From contig NZ_JACJOU010000014.1 in assembly GCF_014695725.1 (NCBI RefSeq), forward strand, positions 62,001-126,000: a DNA stretch of 64,000 bases. Direction: 5' to 3'. The stretch is from Microcoleus sp. FACHB-672 (GTDB lineage Bacteria > Cyanobacteriota > Cyanobacteriia > Cyanobacteriales > Oscillatoriaceae). Both the position numbers and the translations under genes were made by a program. Within the stretch, counting starts at the first letter, position 1; every line of letters starts with the position of its first letter. Shown here in pieces: positions 19,487 to 29,692 of the stretch. The notes under the pieces are model-generated. The model was given only the letters and a program-made list of their open reading frames with translations. It made no database searches and was not told the origin of the DNA.

Positions 19487-22465
19487 ATGCACCTAGACGC
19501 TGGCAACGAACAGATTCATGCCTACCCACCAGACAAACCTGTTCTGGGTGTCAAGCAAAATTCGCCAACGCCCTTAAGACTCCAGCGCAGCCTCAGTTTC
19601 CTTGAAACTTGGGGCTTTGGTCTAAGTGGTCACATTGCCTGGATTGGCACGGCAACGGCAATGCACGCCGCACTTGGCCCAGGCGCGATTGTTGTGTGGT
19701 TGCCGACTGTATTTATCGGGATACTACTAAACCGGCAAGTGAAACGGTTAGGTGAACAGTGGCCAGAGATGTCAGGCGGAACGCCCAACTATATCACCAG
19801 GCTGCTGAAAGACTATCCAGGGCTAGGTCGTTATGCGGCGCTTGCTTACTTCATCAGCTGGGCAACCTATCTGCCGGTGAACGCGATCATCCTCACAGAC
19901 TTAATCCAAGCCAACTTGGAACCTTTGGGGATTGCTTGCCCCAAAACGCTGCTCAGAATTGGATTTACCGTTATCGCTTATATCATGGCGTTTAGCGGCA
20001 CCCGCGCCTTAGCAATTTTGCACGCAGTTTTCATTTTCCCAGCCGTCGGGTTTCTACTGCTATTTGGCATTCAAGGGATGGGATGGTTAGCCTTCTCCCC
20101 AGACAGTCCTGGACTTTTTCCGAGCGCTTGGCCAACCCTAACCTTTGTTGACTGGGCCAAGTGGTCATTTTTCGGGGTCTACGGGGCTTGTTCCTGTGAA
20201 AACGCGTCCGCCTTTGTCGCCGATAGCCGGCAGCCCAATAAAACGTTGCAATGTCTAACCTTTGCCGGCTGGTTGCTAGTGCCGGTGTTTCTAGGCAACT
20301 CCTGGGTTTTAGCACGCTTAGCCACCTCTCCCGGACTTGGGGAGGACTCGTTTGCCAACTTATTAACAGCAGCTTCACCATTCTGGGGTTCCTCGGCGAC
20401 ATTCCTAGTCACGCTGCTATTGGCTTCTAGCTGTCTTCTGCTTCCCGCCACAGCCGTTTCCACCTGTCCCCGCATTTTGTACCAACTTGCTTTAGACGGA
20501 CACCTCGCACCCGTATTCACGGTTGTCTCTCCCCAAGGCGTTTTGGGTCCGGGTCTGATATTTTCACTTTTATTCAGTTTAATCAGCCTGTTGTGGGGAG
20601 ATGTCGCCCGCATCGTGGTTGTCGGTTGCGCCGGCTACATGGTGACTTTAATGGCATTCCATCTGGGATTTTGGCTGCGGCGAAAGTTCCCAGAAGTGCG
20701 CTTGCCTCCTGCATCCGGGAGTGCTGCCGGTGGCAAGCGCTTCGCGTTTTTGCCTTGGTTGTCTCTTGGTTTCTTCGCAGTCGATGCCGTTTTCTTAGTG
20801 GTGGGAGGCTTAGCCTGGAGTCGGGAAGACGTGCTGATCGGCTTAATGCTACCTGTGGTGACTTTGGCAGTGGATGCGGCGATCCGTCGTAGCCGGTTTG
20901 GGCTATTTCGCCCGAACTGGTGGATTCAGCGTTACCGGGGACGACACCACAACCTATTTCCAGATTTTGTCGCGTTTCAGGTTGTCATTCTCATCTTTTT
21001 GATCTGTAGTGCCGTTGCTGTGGGTTGGGCTTTTGGCCTCAGATTATATTCTCACTCAAGTATTTTTTCTAATTTCTTGGTGGTACTGCTATTGACAGCC
21101 GCCTTTGTTGGAGTCGCGATTGCGTGCTGGACAAGCTTACCCCAGGTTTTCGCGATGAACCAGGCGCGAGAGGCTGCGGAACATCTGTTTACAATTGCCT
21201 TGGATGCAATTGTGGTGTTGGATGAAAATGGCATGATCCGGCAAGCCAATCCAGCCGCCGAACGTTTATTTGAAATTAGTTCTAACCACTTGGTCGGATG
21301 TCACCTAAATCAATGGCTGCCCGGATTGGCAAATGATCCAGAACAGTGGCTGAGCCGCAGCGAACAAACTTTGAATCAACCCAATACAGATCCGTCGAAC
21401 TCAACGTCTTTAAGCATTCTTGAAGTTGCAATTTCAGACCGATTCTCCCAAGACGCTTCACTTTCAAACCGGGATTTACAAGAATATGTGGTAATTTTGC
21501 GCGATATTACCGAGCGCAAGCAGGCAGAAGAGGCGTTGCAAAAAGCGAATGAGAAGCTAGAAACCCGGGTTGAAAAGCGCACAAATGAACTGAGGAAAAC
21601 TGTTGAGCAATTGCAGACGGAAATCCAAGAGCGTCAGCGGGTGGAAGAAAATCTCAGGGCAATGCAAAATCAAATTGTCGTGCAAGAAAAGCTGGCTTCT
21701 TTGGGAAGTTTAACTGCCGGCATTGCTCATGAAATTAGAAATCCTTTAAACTTTGTCACCAATTTTTCTGAACTTTCTGCGGAATTAGCACAAGAACTGT
21801 TTGAAGAAATTGAAAATCAAGCAGAGCGATTGGATGCAACGACAATTGAATATTTTGCAGAGCTGTTAAATGACCTCAAACAAAATCTTCAAAAAATCAA
21901 TCATCACGGCCAGCGAGCTGATAGCATTGTCAGCAATATGCTTTTGCATTCTCGCGGTCAGAGTGGTCACTGGGAACCGACAGATATCAATAAGTTGCTT
22001 GCAGACTATGTCAATCTTGCTTATCATGGAATGCGAGCTAAGGAAGGCACTTTTAATTTAAGTATAGAAACCGATTATGACGCTGAAATAGGCAAAATAG
22101 AGGTGGTGCCACAAGATATCAGCCGGGTTTTCCTGAACATTATCAACAACGCTTGTTATTCAACCCATAAAAAGAAACAAACGCTGGAAAATGATTTTTC
22201 ACCTGTGCTGTGTGTAAAAACTAAAAATCTGGAAGATCGGGTGGAAATTCGTATCCGCGATAATGGCAAAGGGATGACGTCAGAAGTGCAAGATAAAATT
22301 TTTAATCCCTTCTTTACAACTAAGCCGGCAGGAGAAGGAACCGGCTTGGGTTTATCGCTCAGTCACGATATTATTGTCGGGCAGCATCGAGGAGAACTCT
22401 CTGTTGAATCAGAAGCAGAGGAATATGCGGAGTTTATTATTGTTTTGCCGAAAAAGCCGGCCTAA
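19487..22465 (+). CDS. APC-type amino acid permease fused to PAS and histidine kinase (transporter-sensor kinase)
   Basis: 992 residues in one frame. Residues about 35-555 form an amino-acid/polyamine permease-like region with twelve or more membrane helices (SFLETWGFGLSGHIAWIGTA, PEMSGGTPNYITRLLKDYPG, YGACSCENASAFVADSRQPN). About 563-680 is a PAS domain (LFTIALDAIVVLDENGMIRQANPAAERLF ... DITERKQAEEAL), then a coiled coil (680-735), the phospho-acceptor helix with His748 in GIAHEIRNP, and an HATPase domain (NIINNACYS, DNGKGM, GTGLGLSLS). The arrangement parallels CbrA, a transporter-kinase of pseudomonads, but CbrA uses a different (SSS) transporter fold. It presumably senses or transports an amino acid at the cytoplasmic membrane and phosphorylates the regulator encoded 17 nt downstream. 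Substrate unknown. Confidence 0.9.
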   Translation: MHLDAGNEQIHAYPPDKPVLGVKQNSPTPLRLQRSLSFLETWGFGLSGHIAWIGTATAMHAALGPGAIVVWLPTVFIGILLNRQVKRLGEQWPEMSGGTPNYITRLLKDYPGLGRYAALAYFISWATYLPVNAIILTDLIQANLEPLGIACPKTLLRIGFTVIAYIMAFSGTRALAILHAVFIFPAVGFLLLFGIQGMGWLAFSPDSPGLFPSAWPTLTFVDWAKWSFFGVYGACSCENASAFVADSRQPNKTLQCLTFAGWLLVPVFLGNSWVLARLATSPGLGEDSFANLLTAASPFWGSSATFLVTLLLASSCLLLPATAVSTCPRILYQLALDGHLAPVFTVVSPQGVLGPGLIFSLLFSLISLLWGDVARIVVVGCAGYMVTLMAFHLGFWLRRKFPEVRLPPASGSAAGGKRFAFLPWLSLGFFAVDAVFLVVGGLAWSREDVLIGLMLPVVTLAVDAAIRRSRFGLFRPNWWIQRYRGRHHNLFPDFVAFQVVILIFLICSAVAVGWAFGLRLYSHSSIFSNFLVVLLLTAAFVGVAIACWTSLPQVFAMNQAREAAEHLFTIALDAIVVLDENGMIRQANPAAERLFEISSNHLVGCHLNQWLPGLANDPEQWLSRSEQTLNQPNTDPSNSTSLSILEVAISDRFSQDASLSNRDLQEYVVILRDITERKQAEEALQKANEKLETRVEKRTNELRKTVEQLQTEIQERQRVEENLRAMQNQIVVQEKLASLGSLTAGIAHEIRNPLNFVTNFSELSAELAQELFEEIENQAERLDATTIEYFAELLNDLKQNLQKINHHGQRADSIVSNMLLHSRGQSGHWEPTDINKLLADYVNLAYHGMRAKEGTFNLSIETDYDAEIGKIEVVPQDISRVFLNIINNACYSTHKKKQTLENDFSPVLCVKTKNLEDRVEIRIRDNGKGMTSEVQDKIFNPFFTTKPAGEGTGLGLSLSHDIIVGQHRGELSVESEAEEYAEFIIVLPKKPA

Positions 22466-22482
22466 GAAAGGAAATTTTAAAT

Positions 22483-22851
22483 ATGAAAATCATGGTTGTG
22501 GACGATGAAGAAGATATCCAATTGCTATTCAAGCAAAAATTTAGAAAAGAAATCAAAGCCGGCGAAGTTGAATTTATTTTTGTCCTCTCCGCAGAGACGG
22601 CGATAGATTACTTGCAAAACCAGGGAAAAGCCTGCGTAGTCCTGATTCTCTCAGATATTAATATGCCAGGGATGAACGGGCTAGAACTCCTGAAAATTAT
22701 CAAACAAAACTTTTCGGAGATAAAAGTATTTATGATTACGGCTTATAGCGATGAGGAAAATTATCAAATAGCGAAAGCGAATGGAGCAAATGATTATATC
22801 AAAAAACCTGTTAATTTTGAAATATTGAAAGAAAAAATATTTAGTTTATAA
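22483..22851 (+). CDS. single-domain response regulator
   Basis: 122 residues, receiver domain only: acidic pocket VDDEED (residues 6-11), phospho-acceptor Asp58 in LILSDINMPGMNG, Thr86 in MITAYS and Lys108 in KKPV. There is no output domain, so it must act through a partner, as CheY or Spo0F do. It starts 17 nt after the permease-kinase stop with AAAGGA upstream, and 37 nt before the receiver-kinase hybrid, so the three form one operon and probably a phosphorelay. The sequence resembles the receiver of the next gene (both keep SDINMP/TDINMP), suggesting duplication. Confidence 0.92.
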   Translation: MKIMVVDDEEDIQLLFKQKFRKEIKAGEVEFIFVLSAETAIDYLQNQGKACVVLILSDINMPGMNGLELLKIIKQNFSEIKVFMITAYSDEENYQIAKANGANDYIKKPVNFEILKEKIFSL

Positions 22852-22888
22852 ATTATTTATTACAAACCGCCTGTTTAGGGAGCGATTT

Positions 22889-24301
22889 ATGCCAATAAAA
22901 ATCTTATTTGTAGATGATGAACCAGATCTAGAGCTGCTAATCTCTCAGAAATTTAAGAAAAAGGTTCATTTAGGAGAATTGCAGCTAGTTTTTGCCCGAA
23001 ATGGTGCGGAAGCACTGGAAAAGTTGCAAGAGCATCCAGATACAGATATGGTATTGACCGACATTAATATGCCGGTGATGGATGGCCTAGCTTTGCTGGC
23101 TAAACTTAATGATATAAATCCCACGATTAAAACAGTGGTTATGTCCGCCTATGGCGACATGAAAAATATTAGAAAGGCGATGAACTGTGGAGCTTTTGAT
23201 TTTTTAACTAAACCCATCGATTTTCAGGATTTAGAACTTACGATTAACAAAACCTGGCAATGCGTACAGGAGATTAAACAAAACTTGCGGGTGCAACAAG
23301 AACAACAGGAAAAATTACAACAATCAGAAGCTTGCGCCAGAGAACAAGCAACCAACCTAGAAAAAGCCCTGCAAGATTTACGACGAACCCAAGGGCAATT
23401 AATTCAAACTGAGAAAATGTCTCTTCTCGGCCAATTGGTTGCAGGCGTGGCTCATGAAATTAATAACCCAGTTAACTTTATTTATGGCAATCTGGCTCAC
23501 GTTAGCGAAACTGCTCAAAATTTGCTTGGTTTAATTGAGTTGTACCAGCAGTGCTATCCCTCTCCCACTCCTGAAATTCAAAATGAGACTGAAGAGATCG
23601 ACCTTGATTTTTTAAGCGAAGATTTGCCAAAAATGCTGTCTTCAATGCAAGTTGGGGCTGAGCGTATTCGTCAAATTGTGCTGACGCTGCGGAACTTCTC
23701 ACGGGTTGATGAAGCGGAGAAGAAGCCGGTCAATATTCATGAGGGGATTGATAGCACACTCATGATTTTGCAGAATCGCCTTAAGGCTAACGCCGAGCAG
23801 GCTGCTATTGAAGTTGTTAAGGAATATGGGGATTTACCAAAGGTAGAATGCTATGCCGGCCAATTGAATCAGGTATTTATGAATATCATCGGCAATGCCA
23901 TTGATGCCTTGAACCAGTCTAACAAAAGTCGCGCTCCTACAGAAATTAAAAATTGTCCGAGTACAATTACAATTTCCACCCAAGTTATCAACTCTGATAG
24001 CGTAAGAGTCAGTATTAAGGATAATGGGCCAGGAATGCCGGCAAGGGTCAAAGAACGATTGTTTGACCCCTTCTTCACGACTAAACCAAGCGGTGAGGGC
24101 ACCGGCTTGGGATTATCTATTAGTTATCAAATCGTTGTAGACAAGCACTACGGGCAGTTGCAGTGCTTCTCAGAAATCGGACAAGGGGCTGAGTTTGTGA
24201 TAGAAATTCCTATCAAGCAAAGTTGTGAGATGCGGATGCAGGTGAGTTCAGCGCCGGCAGAGATGACGGATGAGCAGCGACATGGGATGCTGGTAGATTG
24301 A
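22889..24301 (+). CDS. hybrid response regulator-histidine kinase
   Basis: 470 residues. An N-terminal receiver (Asp58 in VLTDINMPVMDG, MSAYGD, Lys in LTKPID) is followed by a coiled coil (about 125-175), a HisKA helix with His189 in GVAHEINNP, and an HATPase domain (NIIGNAIDAL, DNGPGMP, GEGTGLGLSIS). With the receiver placed before the kinase, phosphorylation could gate kinase output. The core from NFIYGNLAHV to RNFSRVDEAEKK closely matches the LOV kinase at 27419. Cytoplasmic; no membrane segment. Third gene of the permease-kinase operon. The stop at 24301 is 18 nt before the homoserine kinase ATG, so thrB may be co-transcribed. Confidence 0.92.
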   Translation: MPIKILFVDDEPDLELLISQKFKKKVHLGELQLVFARNGAEALEKLQEHPDTDMVLTDINMPVMDGLALLAKLNDINPTIKTVVMSAYGDMKNIRKAMNCGAFDFLTKPIDFQDLELTINKTWQCVQEIKQNLRVQQEQQEKLQQSEACAREQATNLEKALQDLRRTQGQLIQTEKMSLLGQLVAGVAHEINNPVNFIYGNLAHVSETAQNLLGLIELYQQCYPSPTPEIQNETEEIDLDFLSEDLPKMLSSMQVGAERIRQIVLTLRNFSRVDEAEKKPVNIHEGIDSTLMILQNRLKANAEQAAIEVVKEYGDLPKVECYAGQLNQVFMNIIGNAIDALNQSNKSRAPTEIKNCPSTITISTQVINSDSVRVSIKDNGPGMPARVKERLFDPFFTTKPSGEGTGLGLSISYQIVVDKHYGQLQCFSEIGQGAEFVIEIPIKQSCEMRMQVSSAPAEMTDEQRHGMLVD

Positions 24302-27238: not shown

Positions 27239-27270
27239 GCCTCAGATTAGTTAAGATAATACGAACAAAA

Positions 27271-27303
27271 AGAAAGCCTGTCTGTACGGGCTTTCTTTTT
27301 TTT
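27271..27303 (+). terminator. intrinsic terminator after ndhD
   Basis: AGAAAGCC (27271-27278) pairs with GGCTTTCT (27289-27296) around a 10-nt loop, followed by a run of T to 27303. Confidence 0.92.
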
Positions 27304-27418: not shown

Positions 27419-29287
27419 ATGCTCAAAAAGATATCAGAAATTTCCGAACACCGGCAAGCCCTGGAAATGCTATGGCTGTGCGATCGCGCGATGGCAGCAA
27501 CCAGCACCGGCATAGTTATTGCCGATGCCACCAAACCGGGTAGACCCCTTATTTACTGCAATTCAGGCTTCGAGCGGATGACAGGTTACTCCCGCGATGA
27601 AGTGATCGGGCGCAATTGCAAGTTTTTGCAGGGATCTGATAATGATCAACCGGCTATTGAGCAAATTCGCCAAGCCTTACGTGATCAAACTGAATGCCGG
27701 GTCATCTTAAAAAATTATCGCAAAGATGGCACTTTATTTTGGAATGAATTAACCATTTCGCCGGTGTTCGACAGTAACGGACAATTAACTCACTTTATTG
27801 GAGTGCAAAACGACATAACCGAACGCGTAGAAGCAGAAGCCGCGCTTAAGCGAACAACCCAAGAGTTAGCCGATTCTGAAGCCGCGTTACGCAAGCAAAC
27901 CAACATTTTGCAATCCCTCCTCGACAACCTGGCTGAAGGTGTCGTTGTTGCCGATGAAGGCGGTCAGTTTGTGCTATTTAATCCCGCAGCACAAGAGGTG
28001 CTAGGCAAAGGTTTAATTAATGTCTCATCTGAAGCATGGACAGATCAATACGGATGCTATTTGCCCGATAAATTGACCCCCTATCCTCCTCAAGAATTGC
28101 CCCTAGCACAAGCAATTCAGGGAAAATCTGTTGATTCGGCAGAAATTTTTATCCAGCCATCACCAAATTCCGAAGGGGTGTTTATTTGTGTGAATGCGAG
28201 GCCATTAAAAGATGAAACCGGCAGTTTAAAAGGTGGTGTTGCAGTCTTTCGCGATATTACTGAACGAAAGCGTTCTGAGGTAGCTTTGCAGCAATCGGAA
28301 GCGCAATTAAGAGAACACACCAATCAGCTCAAACAAGCTTTACACGACTTACAACAAACCCAAGCGCAACTGATTCAATCTGAAAAAATGTCAAGTTTGG
28401 GGCAATTGGTTGCCGGCATTGCTCATGAAGTTAACAATCCTGTTAGTTTTATTTATGGCAATCTTGCTTATGCCAATGAATACATTCAAGATCTGCTAAA
28501 ATTGCTAAATCTCTACCAGCAGCAGTACCCAAATCCGGGGGAAGAAATTGAAGAGGAAATCGAAGAAGTTGGCTTAAACTTTTTGCTAGAAGATCTGCCA
28601 AAGTTAATGTCTTCCATGAAACAGGGAGCCGAACGCATCCGTCAAATTGTGATTAGCTTGCGTAACTTTGCCCGTTTGGATGAAGCTGAAATGAAAACAG
28701 TGAATATTCACGAAGGCATTGACAGTACATTGCTGATTTTGCAACACCGGCTCAAACAACCGCTAGATTCTGAGATTGAGATTATTAAAGAATACAGCAA
28801 ATTACCCATAGTTGAATGCTATCCAGGGCAACTCAACCAAGTTTTTATCAATATCCTCAATAATGCAATTGATGCTGTAGAAGAATCAGCACTGAAGGGA
28901 GTGGAAAAAGGGCAAATTATCATTCGCACCGGCATCCAAGATGAGCGCGTATTTATCAGCATTGCCGACAATGGAGCGGGCATGAGCGAAGAAGTGAGCC
29001 GGCACATCTTTGAACCCTTCTATACAACTAAGCCGGTAGGAAAAGGCACCGGCTTGGGATTATCGATTAGTTACCAGGTTGTGGTAGAAAAACATGGAGG
29101 CCGGCTGCAATGTATTTCCGCCCCCGGAAAAGGAACCGAACTGAGAATTGAAATACCATTGCGCCAAAAAAATCTTACATCCTTTGCCGTCCCAGATTAC
29201 CTATCGGGAAACGGGAAAAAGGTGGAAAAAGAAAGAGTGGGAGAGAAAAGAACCGGGGTCAGTAATCTTATGTCCCAAAGAGAGTAA
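27419..29287 (+). CDS. LOV-domain (blue-light) PAS histidine kinase
   Basis: 622 residues. Residues about 25-135 are a LOV domain with GRNCKFLQG: Cys67 is in place for the flavin adduct, and Asn99 (NYRKDG), Asn109 (FWNE) and Gln130 (GVQND) are the flavin-contacting residues. A second PAS follows (about 165-285; EGVVVADEGGQFVLFNPAAQ), then a coiled coil, His336 in GIAHEVNNP and an HATPase domain (ILNNAIDAV, DNGAGMS, GKGTGLGLSIS). It should bind FMN and change kinase output in blue light. Soluble. No receiver gene is adjacent; its kinase core is near-identical in layout to the hybrid kinase at 22889, so they may share a partner. The start ATG lacks a clear ribosome binding site. Confidence 0.93.
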   Translation: MLKKISEISEHRQALEMLWLCDRAMAATSTGIVIADATKPGRPLIYCNSGFERMTGYSRDEVIGRNCKFLQGSDNDQPAIEQIRQALRDQTECRVILKNYRKDGTLFWNELTISPVFDSNGQLTHFIGVQNDITERVEAEAALKRTTQELADSEAALRKQTNILQSLLDNLAEGVVVADEGGQFVLFNPAAQEVLGKGLINVSSEAWTDQYGCYLPDKLTPYPPQELPLAQAIQGKSVDSAEIFIQPSPNSEGVFICVNARPLKDETGSLKGGVAVFRDITERKRSEVALQQSEAQLREHTNQLKQALHDLQQTQAQLIQSEKMSSLGQLVAGIAHEVNNPVSFIYGNLAYANEYIQDLLKLLNLYQQQYPNPGEEIEEEIEEVGLNFLLEDLPKLMSSMKQGAERIRQIVISLRNFARLDEAEMKTVNIHEGIDSTLLILQHRLKQPLDSEIEIIKEYSKLPIVECYPGQLNQVFINILNNAIDAVEESALKGVEKGQIIIRTGIQDERVFISIADNGAGMSEEVSRHIFEPFYTTKPVGKGTGLGLSISYQVVVEKHGGRLQCISAPGKGTELRIEIPLRQKNLTSFAVPDYLSGNGKKVEKERVGEKRTGVSNLMSQRE

Positions 29288-29323: not shown

Positions 29324-29692
29324 TCAGCCCCCACTAATTTTGGCTTTATAGCCTAATTGAGTCAGAAATTGCAGAAGTTTTTGGGTGTGATCGCCCTGAA
29401 TTTCAATTTCTCCATCTTTAATCGTACCGCCGGCACCACATTGAGTTTTCATCTGCTTAAGTAGGGATTCCAAAGTTTCAGGTTTAACTTGAAAACCGTT
29501 GATAACAGTGACCGTTTTTCCCTTACGCCCCTTTCGGGATGCCTGCACCCTGACATTTTGCTGAGATGCCGGCAGTTCTGTTACAGGGCGTTCTAGGGCA
29601 GATGGATTGACATCAGTGCCAAATTCTTTATAAATAAAGCGATCGCCGGTGGAAGCATTGCTATCGTTGGATTTGCGCTTGGAAGTTGCCAT
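29324..29692 (-). CDS. SUI1/YciH-family translation factor
   Basis: 122 residues. The C-terminal SUI1 domain (about 50-120) is clear: RKGRKGKTVTVINGFQ, LESLLKQMKTQCGAGGTIKDG and the final GDHTQKLLQFLTQLGYK. It is the bacterial counterpart of eukaryotic eIF1, which in E. coli (YciH) influences start-site fidelity on the 30S subunit. The N-terminal 45 residues are a polar linker. The gene is convergent with the LOV kinase, with 36 bp between the stops. Confidence 0.92.
   Translation of the reverse strand: MATSKRKSNDSNASTGDRFIYKEFGTDVNPSALERPVTELPASQQNVRVQASRKGRKGKTVTVINGFQVKPETLESLLKQMKTQCGAGGTIKDGEIEIQGDHTQKLLQFLTQLGYKAKISGG

Follow-up and report, generated by a model that had tools for sequence, protein, structure and literature searches.

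The histidine kinase LOV-HK of Brucella abortus consists of a LOV domain, a J-alpha helix at residues 135-171 (five heptads), a PAS domain of unknown function and a kinase, and its full-length structure has been solved (PMC8092228). Among cyanobacteria, the LOV-adenylyl cyclase mPAC of Microcoleus chthonoplastes is a photoactive LOV sensor, according to PMC4526808, which cites Raffelberg 2013. We found no characterised cyanobacterial LOV-PAS-histidine kinase (LOV-PAS-HK) in the open literature. Here, we describe a gene of this layout in a 64,000-nucleotide stretch of Microcoleus DNA, which was analysed as a whole and is referred to below as the window.

A base-exact check of the open reading frame found the gene to be intact and uninterrupted, with a product of 622 aa (Table 1). 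Pfam assigned two PAS domains and a HATPase_c domain to this protein. HisKA was not called in it by Pfam at E 1e-3; the H-box and RIRQIVISLRNFAR are present. His336 is the same in all ten sequences aligned, as are residues of the four boxes N, G1, F and G2. Judged by its residues, the kinase part is catalytically complete, with a phospho-acceptor His plus all four ATPase boxes. We consider it highly probable that the protein is soluble and dimeric and serves as a blue-light receptor kinase with the LOV-PAS-HK layout; for it we infer flavin binding, a photocycle, dimerisation, a direction of signalling, a partner and an output.

Table 1. Positions in the window of the kinase gene, its parts and the upstream terminator; the last row concerns a related family
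Feature	Position	Strand	Evidence
LOV-PAS-histidine kinase gene, 622 aa	27419..29287	+	ORF, Pfam domains, orthologues
LOV domain, residues 23-137	27485..27829	+	Pfam, solved-chain matches, structure model
Cys67, predicted flavin-adduct cysteine	27617..27619 (TGC)	+	GRNCKFLQG; aligned to YF1/YtvA cysteine
Arg84, position of flavin-phosphate arginine	27668..27670	+	residue check, orthologues, relatives alignment
Asn99, predicted flavin contact	27713..27715	+	NYRKDG; Asn in 109/109 relatives
Asn109, predicted flavin contact	27743..27745	+	FWN; YF1 and relatives alignments
Gln130, predicted relay of flavin protonation	27806..27808	+	GVQND; YF1 and relatives alignments
J-alpha-like linker helix, residues 134-168, 35 residues, five heptads	27818..27922	+	low-confidence full-length model
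Second PAS domain (PAS_4), residues 168-284	27920..28270	+	Pfam
Helical spine from second PAS (PAS2) to DHp domain	28259..28423	+	Thr281-His336 spacing, YF1 alignment
DHp domain, residues 323-420	28385..28678	+	H-box AHEVNNP and RIRQIVISLRNFAR; NCBIfam kinase matches
His336, predicted phospho-acceptor	28424..28426	+	H-box AHEVNNP; invariant column
HATPase_c, residues 463-585, N/G1/F/G2 boxes	28805..29173	+	Pfam E 3e-25; invariant columns
C-terminal tail, residues 586-622, unconstrained	29174..29284	+	dN/dS; absent in G004
Intrinsic terminator of ndhD	27268..27299	+	folding: -17.5 kcal/mol, z -5.0, then T-run
Cys-less PAS-LOV-HK variants: L193, L196, L198 (Cys to Gly); L199 (Cys to Ser)			L158 family alignment

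The predicted photosensor

The LOV assignment is not due to chance, because residues 1-137 match solved LOV chains with E-values down to 1.4e-38. The same residues match the YtvA blue-light family of NCBIfam (NF052652) at E 3e-49; the score of 167.8 bits covers the LOV part only and lies below the whole-protein cut-off of 250, as is expected because the architecture differs. Along its whole length, the 622-aa protein aligns with SB2F1 and YF1, two LOV kinases of solved structure, in three stretches, namely the LOV domain, the H-box and the ATPase. Cys67, Asn99, Asn109 and Gln130, which the earlier note had listed as the canonical LOV set, align one-to-one with the same residues of YF1 (4gcz), and their numbering proved exact. 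The extra PAS that the note had placed between light sensor and kinase was likewise recovered, as the PAS_4 domain that Pfam called at residues 168-285.

The putative adduct cysteine lies within G-x-N-C-R/K-F-L-Q. Adjoining it, residue 68 is a Lys, where 94 of 109 relatives have Arg, a point against the light-receptor reading; a sister species (G001) also has Arg there, and we read the change as a swap between similar residues. In LOV domains, an arginine at the position of Arg84 contacts the flavin phosphate. A LOV-only AlphaFold model, built from 63 aligned domains, confidently predicted a LOV-type PAS fold (pLDDT 92.9). The best 50 PDB matches listed for this model are LOV domains or LOV proteins, and the closest solved LOV structures among the matches listed lie at 1.2-1.4 A, with MrLOVe as the best (1.3 A). 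The model also matches PF5-LOV, PpSB2-LOV, the Brucella LOV-PAS construct and YF1, the last with a TM-score of 0.89-0.92 (by query length). We propose that the LOV domain would bind FMN, that blue light would lead to a Cys67-flavin C4a adduct with a protonated flavin, and that Gln130 would hand the flavin signal to the beta-sheet and to the J-alpha helix.

Light-independent roles are known for some LOV kinases (review PMC4844311), which speaks against a role in light sensing. The main cellular task of the domain might be to sense flavin redox state (or oxygen), with light being secondary, as reduction of the bound flavin to the semiquinone would lead to the protonation signal that the adduct also gives; Cys-less YF1 and Vivid indeed keep signalling via photoreduction (PMC4682037). 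A related PAS-LOV-HK family points in the same direction: among the 26 L158 orthologues, which belong to another cyanobacterial genus, the photoactive Cys has changed to Gly in three and to Ser in one, and these four keep an open reading frame and the remaining flavin residues. The tree of these orthologues forces at least two Cys changes, and the dN/dS of LOV on the Cys-less branches is below one (0.12-0.30). Cys67, however, is retained in all four orthologues of the gene studied here, even at 65% identity, and redox selection alone would not require this. We regard a mainly redox role as very unlikely for this protein. The natural Cys-to-Gly/Ser kinases offer a direct test of whether LOV kinases can drop the adduct yet function. 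Since natural Cys-less LOV proteins are already known (PMC4682037), these kinases form a good natural series, not a new phenomenon.

Selection on the domains and a proposed route of the signal

Two sister species from the same genus have full-length orthologues, at 94 and 92% identity, and so does a member of another genus of the family (G004, 65%). The reading frame is intact in four genomes, with an overall dN/dS of about 0.11, and every photochemical and catalytic residue is retained in all four. Within the genus, dN/dS was 0.04-0.07 for LOV, 0.05-0.08 for DHp, 0.06-0.16 for PAS2 and 0.09-0.13 for the ATPase, and reached 0.36-1.0 in the last 37 residues (586-622), a tail that is missing in G004. 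By this measure, LOV evolves under strong constraint. The gene could still be a decaying or non-functional sensor, as its unconstrained tail might suggest; LOV domains do decay in the host lineage, because the same genome contains L122, whose LOV-like domain lacks both Cys and Asn109, and L125, in which half of the LOV domain is deleted. The intact frame, the low dN/dS and the full set of catalytic residues argue against decay, which we consider extremely unlikely.

PAS2 is also conserved and lies nearer the kinase than LOV does, and LOV and PAS are cooperative in the engineered YHF kinase (PMC6798134). PAS2 may thus be the dominant physiological input, with light only modulating the response to a ligand. 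However, no other sensor of the protein is as conserved as LOV, both within the genus and in comparison to G004 (73% identity vs 64% for PAS2), and in relatives from other families (L158, L173 and L175) PAS2 is missing and LOV is joined straight to the same kinase. We hold a dominant PAS2 to be rather unlikely. A joint scheme is also conceivable, in which PAS2 reads a distinct signal (e.g. redox or a metabolite), the kinase serves as a two-input gate of blue light and metabolism on a shared regulator, and kinases of the related family are switching from light to redox by loss of the Cys; in our estimate this is unlikely.

As a blue-light receptor, the kinase would pass the signal from J-alpha through PAS2, acting as a further input or as a relay, and a coiled-coil spine (281-335) would carry it onwards to shift the kinase/phosphatase balance at His336. 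In a full-length AlphaFold model, a 35-residue helix joins LOV to PAS2 and a single long helix runs from residue 281 into DHp. This model is poor (pLDDT 63, pTM 0.33) and no more than suggests the helical spine, and claims on domain packing were dropped on account of the pTM. Thr281, in the DIT motif of PAS2, precedes His336 by 55 residues; in YF1, the alignment places Thr127 34 residues ahead of His161. The spacing is therefore three heptads longer (34+21), and its register modulo 7 equals that of YF1. This register is common to 32 of 35 distinct relatives, 28 of which also have the exact length. The shared register supports a continuous coiled coil like that of YF1 (PMC6798134). We did not accept a light-on or light-off assignment by the heptad rule of YF1: with PAS2 between LOV and kinase, the register does not predict the sign of the light response.

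Genomic context and the partner question

The strong terminator of ndhD, upstream of the kinase gene, was overlooked by a consensus terminator scan, because its stem runs into the T-run, and was found by RNA folding. The next gene on the 3' side is yciH/SUI1-like (29324-29692) and convergent. With this terminator upstream and a convergent gene downstream, the kinase gene is probably monocistronic and isolated from the upstream genes. The order ndhD - kinase - yciH is kept in the genus, and G004 retains only the yciH side.

The earlier note had seen no partner regulator next to the kinase, and our survey of the 64-kb window bears this out. The sole receiver-domain ORFs found in it (22483-22851 and 22889-24301) lie approximately 3.1 kb upstream of the kinase, with thrB and ndhD in between, and no receiver gene stands beside the kinase as it would in an adjacent two-component pair. 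We rejected the upstream receiver/kinase block (22483-24301) as an obligatory partner, as the sister species G002 is without the block here yet keeps the kinase. Because of this distance, and of the absence of the block from G002 at the same locus, the kinase is an orphan. The neighbourhoods of relatives L158-L163 and L165-L168 contained no receiver ORF; one lies 3.1 kb from the kinase in G004 and 1.9 kb in L172, and the neighbourhoods give no consistent partner. The phosphate would pass to a response regulator encoded elsewhere.

The thrS-thrB interval of the window holds a three-gene permease-kinase/receiver block (19487-24301). Its first gene (19487-22465) encodes a 992-aa protein in which an AA-permease-like membrane domain (AA_permease only at E 1e-4) is fused to a PAS and a histidine kinase; genes for a single receiver and for a receiver-kinase follow it. 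Three further copies of the fusion are clustered in the same genome (G000:C4:268-277 kb), and it is present in 7/8 genomes of the family. In G002 (L127), this locus lacks the block. The fusion is a transporter-sensor like CbrA in idea; the type of transporter differs.

Cyanobacterial relatives and known systems

LOV domains were detected in 119 of the 196 genomes of the order (E below 1e-30). At the same threshold the host genome has five, one of which (L122) is without the cysteine. The domain is thus common in the order and the arrangement is known from Brucella LOV-HK, neither of which the earlier note had named, and this makes the gene less surprising. As full-length orthologues, the exact LOV-PAS-HK order was found only in the window's own family. 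Other cyanobacterial kinases, namely L165/L172 (PAS-LOV-PAS-HK), L158 (PAS-LOV-HK) and L173/L175 (LOV-HK), share its LOV subfamily (about 58-70% identity in LOV) and its kinase family; they differ in that an N-terminal PAS is present or PAS2 is missing. A receiver in the N-terminal extension of these relatives was considered and rejected, since in L158, L165 and L172 the extension proved, by Pfam and by its sequence, to be a PAS-type domain, with no receiver present.

LOV relatives also carry other outputs, including GGDEF-EAL, HisKA_2 kinases and nucleotide cyclases. In the host genome, L122:2647-6882 (G000:C7) is a multi-PAS GGDEF-EAL protein whose LOV-like domain has Cys changed to Leu and FWN to MWL. 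L125:5440-8181 (G000:C15) has a LOV without its N-terminal half and with upstream stops in all frames, i.e., a decayed LOV. Elsewhere, LOV is fused to class III nucleotide cyclases (L174:5970-7454, L176:5527-7335 and L177:6448-7962), with a receiver, a double LOV or a PAS in front; these are candidate photoactivated cyclases.

In itself the kinase gene is unsurprising: other bacteria already have kinases of this kind, and neither its layout nor its mechanism is new. It is a clean, compact cyanobacterial LOV-PAS-HK with a non-HWE kinase, and lends itself to comparisons of the ways in which light signals pass across an intervening PAS domain. YF1 (PDB 4gcz), an engineered YtvA-LOV/FixL fusion, shares the LOV residues, the LOV, H-box and ATPase matches and the spine register; it differs in being artificial, in having no second PAS and in its shorter spine. 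The cyclase mPAC is likewise a cyanobacterial LOV sensor, and in the source cited above its output is a cyclase, not a kinase. Brucella LOV-HK (PDB 6pps for LOV-PAS) has the same order of N-terminal LOV, five-heptad J-alpha, central PAS and C-terminal kinase, and its LOV is about 36-38% identical to the one described here by structural alignment. It is a parallel dimer, and by analogy a parallel dimer would be expected for the 622-aa kinase. In Brucella LOV-HK the kinase belongs to the HWE class, whereas here we find the H-box AHEVNNP, the motif R-I-R-Q-I-V-x-x-L-R-x-F-x-R and an ordinary HATPase_c. The match to the HWE-type blue-light-activated kinases of Brucella and Erythrobacter (NF052306) covers the LOV part only, with 139.5 bits against a whole-protein cut-off of 450. 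Because the kinase class differs and this score lies below the cut-off, the protein stands outside the Brucella kinase family; by analogy, it is predicted to work like Brucella LOV-HK.
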